DNA of 64,000 nt from assembly GCF_015291705.1 (NCBI RefSeq), contig NZ_CP030050.1, positions 2,604,001-2,668,000 of the forward strand. Direction: 5' to 3'. Shown here one piece after another: positions 25,239 through 26,975 of the stretch; positions within the stretch are counted from its first letter, which is position 1; every line of letters begins with the position of its first letter. Made by a program: the position numbers and the translations under genes. The notes under the pieces were generated by a model, which saw nothing but the letters and a program-made list of their open reading frames with translations, was not told the DNA's origin and made no database searches. This DNA comes from Bradyrhizobium arachidis. GTDB taxonomy: Bacteria; Pseudomonadota; Alphaproteobacteria; Rhizobiales; Xanthobacteraceae.

Positions 25239-25301
25239 GTCGGCTTCTGAGCGCAAGCCGGGAGTCGCCTCGTATGGCCGTCATCGGCGGTTCATGACCC
25301 A
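25239..25301. repeat. Left half of the dispersed repeat split by the insertion sequence
   Basis: Begins GTCGGCTTCTGAGCGCAAG and contains GGCCGTCATCGGCGGTT then ATGACCCA, as in the copy at 12206-12275. The next expected bases AGCGGAC reappear at 26881, beyond the element. Confidence 0.75.
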
Positions 25302-25320
25302 AATGTATGGTCCGGCCGTG

Positions 25321-25738
25321 GGGTGCAAGAAGATTTCGACGATCCGGTAGATGCGGTCTTGCATCAATGTATCCGGCCTCTGTTTGGAGCGCAGTGCTCC
25401 GGGCCATCATGGATATCAGCGCGCATGTGATCTGGTTAGCGGACAGGCCTCGACCGGGCCATTTGGGTCACCAGGGTTCACATGTGCCGGGAAGACCGAT
25501 TCTCCATCGTCGTCTCATCCTCTCGCAGACCTCGGCGGGTAAGGGTTGTTACGTCATCGATAGCTCCTCACTTCGCGCTGTTCCTTCGTTCGTGCCTGGC
25601 GGCCGTTCCTTCGTCCCGGCCTGCGCGCGCAGACGCGCCGCGCGCAAGGGGCCGTCAAAGCCGGCCGTCGTGCTGTCCTGACGTCTTGCTCTCCTGCTGC
25701 CAGGCTGCGCCTTGACGGCCCCGCGCACGGCGCGAGGA
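25321..25738 (-). ncRNA. Candidate bridge RNA / seekRNA region of the insertion sequence
   Basis: This long non-coding part lies downstream of the transposase, where IS1111-type elements encode their guide RNA. In the minus-strand transcript, 25434-25473 can fold as CTGGT/ACCAG, then an open internal loop, then GGCC/GGCC with a 7-nt cap. One side of the loop contains TGACCCAAATG, identical to the left junction (25295-25305). The other contains GTCCGCTAA, the complement of the right junction (26879-26887). Another inverted repeat (GGGGCCGTCAA/TTGACGGCCCC) lies nearer the transposase stop. The RNA ends are not determined. Confidence 0.6.
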
Positions 25739-26803
25739 TCAAGCAGGTCGGGACACCGTCTCCTCCATCTTGACGCACGCGAAGGCGCGTCCCTTGTTGA
25801 GGACCGCCCAGGCGATCCGGGCGAGCTTGTTGGCGAGCGCAATCGCCAGCACGTTGTGGTGCAATCGCTTCTTGGCGGCTTCGATCCAAGAGTTGAGGCC
25901 ATAGCGCTCCCAGCACTTGACCTTTACCAGAACAACCCACGCGGCTTGCACGAACAGCGCGCGCAGGTAGCGATTACCGCGCCTTGATATACTGCCGAGG
26001 ATCGTGCGGTCGCCGGTCGATATCTGCTTCGGAACAAGTCCAAGCCAGGCGCCGAAGTCGCGGCCTTTCGAGAACACGTCTCCGGTGCCGATCGCAGCCA
26101 CCATTGCGCTCGAGATGATTGGGCCAATGCCAGGCACCGTCATCAGTCGCTGGCAGGCCCTATCTTGACGGGCTAGTGTTTCGATCTCGCCAGATAGACC
26201 CTCGATACGCTCATCCAGCCGGCGCCAGTCTTCCGCCAGACCCTCGATGATGGGCAACATGCGAGGCGAGAGCACATCAGTGCGTGTTGCCAAGATACCT
26301 GGCAACTCGAACCGCAGGGAATGCGGGCCTTGCCGCACGGCGATGCCCCGTTCCAGCAGGAACGCACGGATCTGATTGATCGCGCCGGTACGCTGACCGA
26401 CCAATCGATCGCGGACGCGGTGCAGTGCCTGAAGGTCGAGCTGATCGGCGGTCTTGGTCGCGACGAACTTCATGGTCGGGCGTTGGACAGCCTCGGCGAT
26501 GGCTTCCGCATCTCGGAAGTCATTCTTCTGTCCCTTCGAATACGGGCGCACGTATTTCGCTGGCATCAGGCGGGCGTCGTGGCCAAGTACTTGGAGTTTG
26601 CGGCTGAGATGATGGGCGCCTACGCAGGCCTCCATACCGATCAAGCACGGCGGCAGGTTGGCGAGCCGCGTTTCCACCTGGCCGCGCGACCACTTCTGCC
26701 GCAGCACGATGGCACCGCGGTGATCCTGACCCACGATGTGGAACGAGTTTTTGCCGATGTCGATGCCGATCACGGCGATCGCCGCGTTGAGTTTCTGAGA
26801 CAT
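25739..26803 (-). CDS. IS110-family (IS1111-type) transposase
   Basis: The protein has 354 residues from ATG 26803 (MSQKLNAA). The N-terminal RuvC-like DEDD domain shows IGIDIGKNSFHIVG, GMEACVGAHHLSRKL and KNDFRDAEAIAEAV. The phrase RLMPAKYVRPYSKGQKNDF with AVQRPTMKF is characteristic of the IS1111 subgroup. The C-terminal Transposase_20 domain has LMTVPGIGPIISSAMVAAIGTG and a region with Ser in ISTGDRTILGSISRRGNRYLR. Such enzymes use an element-encoded guide RNA. Complete, no frameshift. Confidence 0.93.
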   Translation of the reverse strand: MSQKLNAAIAVIGIDIGKNSFHIVGQDHRGAIVLRQKWSRGQVETRLANLPPCLIGMEACVGAHHLSRKLQVLGHDARLMPAKYVRPYSKGQKNDFRDAEAIAEAVQRPTMKFVATKTADQLDLQALHRVRDRLVGQRTGAINQIRAFLLERGIAVRQGPHSLRFELPGILATRTDVLSPRMLPIIEGLAEDWRRLDERIEGLSGEIETLARQDRACQRLMTVPGIGPIISSAMVAAIGTGDVFSKGRDFGAWLGLVPKQISTGDRTILGSISRRGNRYLRALFVQAAWVVLVKVKCWERYGLNSWIEAAKKRLHHNVLAIALANKLARIAWAVLNKGRAFACVKMEETVSRPA

Positions 26804-26975
26804 GGCGTGCTCCTTGTCTTGAGCGCCCCTTGCCAGCTTCTCGTGCTGGCAGGGCCGGAGCACGGCCGGACCATCCCATTAGCGGACTTCCGCGCTGCAT
26901 TGACTTAGATCAAGCGGTTCCAACGATATCGTTCAGCATTATCCTCGGCGGGCAAAGCTGGGCACGAGGGTGCGG

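Follow-up and report, generated by a model that had tools for sequence, protein, structure and literature searches.

A predicted guide RNA that matches both flanks of an IS1111-group insertion sequence in Bradyrhizobium arachidis, and changes with them among relatives

Does the non-coding DNA behind a transposase gene specify the site at which its own element has been inserted? This question is raised by a locus in Bradyrhizobium arachidis, within a window of 64,000 nucleotides (the whole stretch of DNA analysed: contig NZ_CP030050.1 of assembly GCF_015291705.1, positions 2,604,001 to 2,668,000), for which an initial annotation had described an IS1111-type element with an internal RNA loop whose two strands match the two sides of the insertion. 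Our analysis confirms that observation and supports its interpretation as right in substance. All positions given below are those of the window, and the element consists of the following parts:

25304..26881, minus strand: IS1111-group insertion sequence of 1578 bp, including a 7-bp left and a 3-bp right extension
26861..26874: sub-terminal inverted repeat of 14 bp at the left end (transposase orientation), an exact inverted match to 25307..25320
25307..25320: sub-terminal inverted repeat of 14 bp at the right end (transposase orientation), an exact inverted match to 26861..26874
25739..26803, minus strand: transposase gene tnp, 354 amino acids from the ATG at 26803
25304..25738, minus strand: downstream non-coding region of 435 bp, the last ~240 nt of which are kept by shorter relatives

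The tnp reading frame is open from a GTG at 26863 (25739..26863), with 26803 as the likely start. Its product matches the profiles PF01548 and PF02371, both above cut-off, as well as the NCBIfam model NF033542 ('IS110 family RNA-guided transposase'), with 329.5 bits against a cut-off of 140. These matches correspond to the DEDD (RuvC-like) transposase with an IS116/IS110/IS902 C-terminal domain that is a trait of the IS1111 group. The protein also aligns with the transposase chains of IS621 and ISCro4 over residues about 192-363, and its GLVPKQISTG matches the IS1111 motif GL-P----S(t)G as worded in the excerpted text of PMC11187229; by our own reading by eye, the DEDD residues would be placed in IGIDIGKN, GMEAC and NDFRDAEA. 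A further trait of the group is the distribution of non-coding DNA, with 435 bp downstream of tnp (25304-25738) versus 78 bp upstream of the ATG. In alignments, six relatives (L112, L113, L118, L127, L131 and L135; L numbers denote loci and G numbers genomes) are shorter by about 150-190 nt near the junction of tnp and the downstream region, and retain the guide part. Its sequence places the element in the IS1111 group, within the IS110 family, as a new member; our literature searches found no paper on it or on its target repeat.

The bounds 25304-26881 were set by the IS1111 rule of a 7-bp and a 3-bp end, as it appears in the part of PMC11187229 drawn upon, which gives extensions of TAATGGG on the left and ACA on the right in transposase orientation, outside the perfect 14-bp repeats that are expected of the group. 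This assignment agrees with uninterrupted repeat copies reading GTCCGC-TNN-GGGTCA in relatives. An earlier idea, that the AT shared by both ends is a duplicated core, was dropped because the 7/3 rule and the uninterrupted copies fit better; a pattern built on it had found 6 sites against 1 in the control. The genome of B. arachidis (9.87 Mb, one contig) holds 20 copies with differing flanks, 19 of them identical over the 1578 bp and the remaining one, L020, 2 bp shorter, and all 20 have the same orientation relative to the target, in keeping with the group's habit of one target and one orientation. From the identity of the copies we infer that the element is active or recently active. The same genome also contains three diverged relatives, L057-L059 (G000:C1:2050885-2052344, 1838696-1839951 and 2097137-2098380), of which L057 has changed ends and arms of the AGAC/ACCTT type seen in L107 and L111.

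The guide itself is predicted to lie on the transposase-gene strand, in these parts:

25421..25487, minus strand: target-reading stem-loop of the predicted seekRNA, from the fold and from the consensus fold and pair counts of 47 sequences
25461..25470, minus strand: top-strand arm TGACCCAAAT, the complement of TTTGGGTCA on the right flank
25436..25444, minus strand: bottom-strand arm GTCCGCTAA, the same as the left flank GTCCGC plus the core T and the element's AA
25368..25418, minus strand: 3' hairpin of the predicted long seekRNA, with AUACAU (25372-25367, partly outside the hairpin) equal to the right element end plus the core T

The stem-loop is predicted to have CAUGUGA/UCACAUG and CUGGU/ACCAG stems, a symmetric 9x9 internal loop and a GGCC apical stem. 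In the minus-strand RNA, CUGGU (25474-25470) and ACCAG (25436-25432) form one stem and GGCC with GGCC another, so that the fold reproduces the CTGGT/ACCAG and GGCC/GGCC pairing around an internal loop that had been described for this segment. Both arms, TGACCCAAAT and GTCCGCTAA, sit within the 9x9 loop of the predicted fold, the top-strand arm followed by the bottom-strand arm in one folded RNA; this arm order and the position downstream of the gene are those of IS1111 seekRNAs in the excerpts of PMC11187229, and the earlier assignment to an IS1111-type layout holds.

The matches between the arms and the flanks are present in the sequence with small shifts from those first described. TGACCCAAATG is the complement of 25460-25470 and GTCCGCTAA that of 25436-25444, and their copies at the junctions lie exactly where they had been placed, at 25295-25305 and 26879-26887. 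What requires correction is the view of these copies as flank throughout, since TG (25304-25305), 2 of the 11 matching bases, and TTA (26879-26881), 3 of the 9, are inside the element ends. Because the arms match the occupied junctions through these two and three element bases, the inserted state fits slightly better than the empty target, which could serve excision. It is very unlikely that an 11-mer and a 9-mer on the right strands would face each other in one loop by chance (less than 1e-6, by our own estimate rather than a tool's computation), and the comparison among relatives given below is a stronger argument still.

As a fold, the stem-loop is unremarkable in energy (z = -1.55; 15 of 200 shuffles fold as well), and the covariation term of RNAalifold is small (-0.25 kcal/mol). 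In the consensus structure of 47 distinct sequences, one representative being taken per distinct guide region, 97.6% of cells are paired and 10 of 35 pairs have changes on both sides, five of the ten in the basal stem. None of 500 shuffles was as high on any of five pair-change measures, and slid versions were lower on all of them; related sequences can beat shuffles without any structure, the measures that count pairs and types being less prone to this. Taken by comparison, these paired base changes support the fold. The second hairpin that had been noted, TATCC/GGATA (25370-25374 and 25411-25415) with AATGTAT at 25366-25372, is present as well; its stem hardly varies, and is therefore neither supported nor refuted. 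A search of the element against Rfam gave no family and only one chance-level miRNA match, outside the element.

What site does this guide predict, and is it the site at which the copies lie? At the window locus the two halves of the interrupted target are:

26882..26887, minus strand: left half, reading GTCCGC in the direction of the transposase gene
25295..25303, minus strand: right half, reading TTTGGGTCA in the direction of the transposase gene

In that orientation the site reads GTCCGC^TTTGGGTCA. The 20 copies in the genome sit at a GTCCGC-like sequence followed by ^T, a short spacer and then GGGTCA. On the right flank both GGGTCA and the first base T are exact in all 20, and on the left flank GTCCGC is matched at 6/6 positions in 8 copies, 5/6 in 6, 4/6 in 5 and 3/6 in 1. 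It had been reasoned that identical loops at different targets would speak against a guide, and instead the 20 same-loop copies share GGGTCA and a GTCCGC-like left half.

For a wider view we used the best 79 of 124 loci with related transposases, and guide loops and flanks were tabulated in 90 rows, which cover those loci in which the alignment extended to the right end. Of these rows 67 were usable, 19 being dropped for a short flank and 4 (L057, L118, L123 and L124) for a damaged right end. The right half of the target is matched at 6/6 positions in 63 of the 67 sites, at 5/6 in L088, L089 and L116, and at 3/6 in L100. This last element (right end at about 3055) is intact, with the majority guide, a left flank of GTCCGC and a right flank without GGGTCA, and is possibly a rearranged site.

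The distance between the core and the right half-site is less constant than the half-sites themselves. Before GGGTCA the spacer is 2 bases in 4, 3 in 15 and 4 in 1 of the element's own copies, and by the best fit of the right arm it is 2 in 20, 3 in 40, 4 in 5, and 0 and 1 in one each of the 67 sites, the spacer-1 case being L100, with no real fit. A search for the right-end pattern in 60 genomes listed 59 junctions, from 24 genomes, in which a count by hand gave spacer 3 in 42, spacer 2 in 14, and spacers 4, 1 and 0 in one each. We could read this as play in the target: the left half and the core T may fix the cut, with the right arm pairing one base nearer or further.

An alternative is that the guide does not tolerate spacers of 2 or 4, and that imprecise joining sometimes loses or adds one base. 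The comparison with uninterrupted sites speaks on both sides here. Among uninterrupted copies of the repeat family R1 with CCGC in front (found in 32 of 117 genomes), 42 of 44 have a spacer of 3, and spacers of 2 and 4 are absent. The element of L002 nevertheless interrupts an R1 copy with a spacer of 2, the left half there being CTCC and not CCGC. Similarly, the repeats related to the type interrupted in L008 have spacer 3 (L199 and L200) where L008 has 2, and L163, an uninterrupted relative of the site of L001, also has spacer 3. On the other hand, an uninterrupted spacer-2 site exists (L143), and TT occupies the spacer in 13 of the 14 spacer-2 junctions (hand count), as if picked by pairing to the AA of the guide. 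Element-free exact motif sites also show spacers of 2 and 4: those with a T first have spacers of 1, 2, 3, 4 and 5 bases in 6, 5, 32, 9 and 2 cases among the matches listed (146 counted of 150, the four left out being of G075 and including no T-first spacer), and the T-first excess of spacer 3 was seen in 12 genomes counted. For spacers 2, 3 and 4, the element-free exact GTCCGC-T..GGGTCA sites number 5, 32 and 9, against 19, 40 and 4 occupied sites with exact right halves, and the difference between spacers 2 and 3 gives p = 0.053 in a Fisher test. As to the absence of a target duplication, another trait of the IS1111 group, joined flanks resemble uninterrupted repeat copies, with spacing that varies by one base and no before/after pair of a single locus; a search for such pairs at spacer-2 sites returned only paralogues or partial matches. 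We regard imprecise joining as a somewhat doubtful account of the variable spacing.

Many of the joined sites are part of a degenerate repeat that is dispersed in Bradyrhizobium, with the layout GTCCGCTNNGGGTCA ... (+40) GTCCGCT ... (+58) AGCGGAC, like two linked hairpins. GTCCGCT recurs with at most 1 mismatch at +39/+40 of the right flank (positions counted by hand), where a 26-base window is matched in 11 of the element's 20 own flanks (0-3 for other windows) and in 25 of the 55 flanks from relatives (2-8 for other windows), and its complement recurs, again with at most 1 mismatch, at +57/+58 in 10 and at +11 in 5 of the 20 own flanks. Owing to these recurrences the repeat looks like a paired palindrome whose first arm is entered by the element. 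There are several subfamilies that differ in the sequence between these words, with uninterrupted examples in L155, L145 and L163. RNAalifold found no shared consensus fold in the 20 joined sites, and Rfam found no repeat family in nine loci with uninterrupted repeats, where it returned six tRNA matches in L163 and a below-threshold radC match in L155. We make no claim of abundance for the motif in the element's own genome, since a looser target pattern was no commoner there than its reversed control (43 against 43).

If the loop guides insertion, the guides of relatives should change together with their sites, and several relatives with changed loops do lie at changed motifs, a comparison that the initial annotation had called for. 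Over the 67 sites, the summed matches between guide and flank were 718, versus a mean of 686.9 (sd 3.51, highest 711) when guides and flanks were re-paired, with none of 20000 re-pairings as high; without L100, the 66 sites gave 710 versus 678.9 (sd 3.5), again with none of 20000 as high. In these figures the left flanks of L107 and L111 resemble each other, and the two sites may be related rather than independent, as may some copies of Bradyrhizobium erythrophlei GAS478. Fifteen usable elements have a guide unlike the majority in the six scored arm bases, and 9 of them (L073, L074, L082, L092, L093, L098, L106, L107 and L111) match the flank at which they sit better with the guide they carry than they would with the majority guide. 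The bottom-strand arm changes with the flank in L082 (arm GTCGCC, flank gTCGCC), L092, L106 (variant guide CCGA), L107, L111 and the CCGG group of L073, L074, L093 and L098. The top-strand arm does so in L092, whose arms GTCGCA and TGGCCC face flanks TTCGCA and CGGGCCA, and in L107 and L111, where arms AGAC and TGACCTT face AGAC and AAGGTCA. The other 6 fit worse, by one base in L084, L112, L113, L132 and L136 and by one in each arm in L116; in L084, L132 and L136 a U replaces the majority C, and G-U pairing could still be possible. GAS478 (FSRD01000001.1 and sister records, loci within L073-L136) holds several guide variants of the same element family in one genome, GTCCGC, GTCCGG, GTCGCC and GTCCGT, a natural series for retargeting. 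By comparison, the case that guide changes go with target changes in this family is strong.

These relatives also bear on whether recognition of GTCCGC-TNN-GGGTCA is instead the work of the transposase protein, with the similarity of the RNA loop to the target a by-product or a relic. Within the genome, reading by protein and by RNA are inseparable, as the copies share the loop (20 of 20) and the whole element (19), and most of the tabulated relatives have the majority arms and target alike. However, differing arms occur at differing targets in elements whose protein remains close to that of the query (86% identical for L082, one of the GAS478 copies, 83% for L092 and 85% for L106), while other relatives at a similar distance retain the majority arms and target, and we consider it highly unlikely that the protein alone accounts for the match. 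Capture of flanking DNA by an ancestral copy, or chance, with no guiding function, might explain why both arms match occupied junctions including the element bases (TG and TTA on the plus strand), as a copied junction would, but it is a very improbable origin for arms that face each other across a conserved internal loop, match opposite strands and track changes in the target, when a captured copy would be expected to decay.

Does the 3' hairpin read the element's own end? The suggestion that it may be the donor loop is partly supported: AUACA and the base after it equal the right end and the core, and this core base changes with the others in relatives that have a G core. In 62 of the 67 rows there is a T at the start of the right flank, at the start of the element, in the core of both target arms and after AUACA. 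L106 has G in all five positions (one at each junction, two in the target arms and one in the donor arm). In L060, L094, L100 and L109 the core base of the right flank is not T and only the flank differs (4 of 66 sites with T guides). The pattern GGATACAGNNNTGCAAGACC was found in 4 of 265 genomes of the genus; the match in G164 proved to be something else, and G-type elements are present in the remaining three genomes. L215 likewise has G in all five; in L203 the left end was not found, and the four remaining positions are all G. The base after AUACA is thus T in elements with a T core and G in L106, L203 and L215. L106 comes from Bradyrhizobium niftali and is identical in guide and right end to the copy in G127; no more than three independent insertions with a G core are therefore represented. 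Two observations speak against a linked core base: L204-L207, picked for their odd flanks, have non-T letters on the right flank despite T-type guides, and L118, whose right end is damaged, combines G-type arms with a T at its left end.

These co-changes give moderate support to a donor arm in the 3' hairpin that would read the element's own right end and core, and one natural lineage may have switched its core base from T to G in the target arms, the donor arm and the two ends together. For IS1111 RNAs, Durrant et al. predicted nucleotides that bind the donor (in the excerpted text of PMC11208160), and the role of the long seekRNA is left open by Siddiquee et al. in the portions of PMC11187229 used here. 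Combining a target read as two half-sites with play between them (14-, 15- and 16-bp targets), a 3' hairpin that is a true donor loop and a T-to-G core switch in one lineage gives a fuller reading, which we put forward tentatively and would not expect to hold in all its parts.

How might such an element move? Searched in its inserted form, the element yielded neither a sigma-70-like promoter nor a terminator of a simple kind. Joining of its ends would give a junction promoter on the circle, TTGCAC-N17-CATAAT, by analogy with the ISEc11 circle, for which a junction promoter is described in the excerpts of PMC11187229. L106 starts with GGATGGG, and its circle would for that reason lack the second box, CATAAT. 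RNA from the transposase-gene strand, downstream of tnp, would be transcribed from this circle-junction promoter, then processed and folded to form the target loop, whose two arms would pair with the two strands of GTCCGC-T-NN-GGGTCA; the 3' hairpin would read the element's own joined ends, and an RNA-guided recombinase would join ends and target at the shared core base T. An IS1111-group element moving by an RNA-guided recombinase, with a target loop and a donor-reading 3' hairpin, is in our opinion very probably the best explanation of the locus. Its family, its ends, the shared target of its 20 copies, the co-change of guide and target, the conserved fold and the co-change of the core are established by comparison of copies and relatives. 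For transcription, processing, pairing with DNA and the chemistry of recombination, we infer the behaviour by analogy with ISEc11 and IS621.

The systems closest to this one, so far as the excerpts of PMC11187229 describe them, are ISEc11, ISPa11 and ISKpn4, which also have a DEDD transposase and a long downstream non-coding region. Like other IS1111-group seekRNA elements in that text, the element has sub-terminal inverted repeats with 7/3 extensions and inserts in one orientation at one target, and in its RNA the match to the top strand precedes that to the bottom strand. Natural redirection has a parallel in ISEc11/ISXne4, and a repeat as target in ISPa11 (REP); both ISPa11 (PMC11187229) and IS621 (PMC11208160, likewise in excerpt) are known examples of IS110-family elements that insert in REP-like repeats. 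In contrast to ISEc11, ISPa11 and ISKpn4 as covered there, it has another target, with one-base play between the core and the right half-site, and shows a natural core swap in the target and donor parts of the RNA together; moreover, unlike seekRNAs of the ISEc11 type, its seekRNA is predicted from sequence alone. With the bridge RNA of IS621, as presented in the excerpts of PMC11208160, it would share a target loop, a donor loop and a common core, a REP element being the target of IS621. However, IS621 belongs to the IS110 group, with its RNA upstream of the gene, the reverse arm order, a CT core and an 11-bp target, whereas here the target is gapped, the core is T and the RNA is downstream. 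The target repeat resembles Br-REP1 and Br-REP2 in being made of dispersed intergenic palindromes of the same genus, but their consensus, as given in the part of PMC5082802 drawn upon, does not contain the target motif found in the GTCCGCTNNGGGTCA ... GTCCGCT ... AGCGGAC layout.

To these systems our work adds the comparative test of guide against target, the core swap and the puzzle of the spacing. Less expected were the one-base play, the use of a degenerate paired-palindrome repeat as a target, and a core swap hinting at a role for the 3' hairpin in reading the end of its own element. Tools for DNA insertion are being developed from RNA-guided recombinases of this type, and the T-to-G core swap makes the reading of the donor end by IS1111 seekRNAs directly testable. 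Finally, 20 copies in one genome together with many close relatives form a natural archive that shows which positions in the guide are important, how guides evolve and how strict the spacing is.
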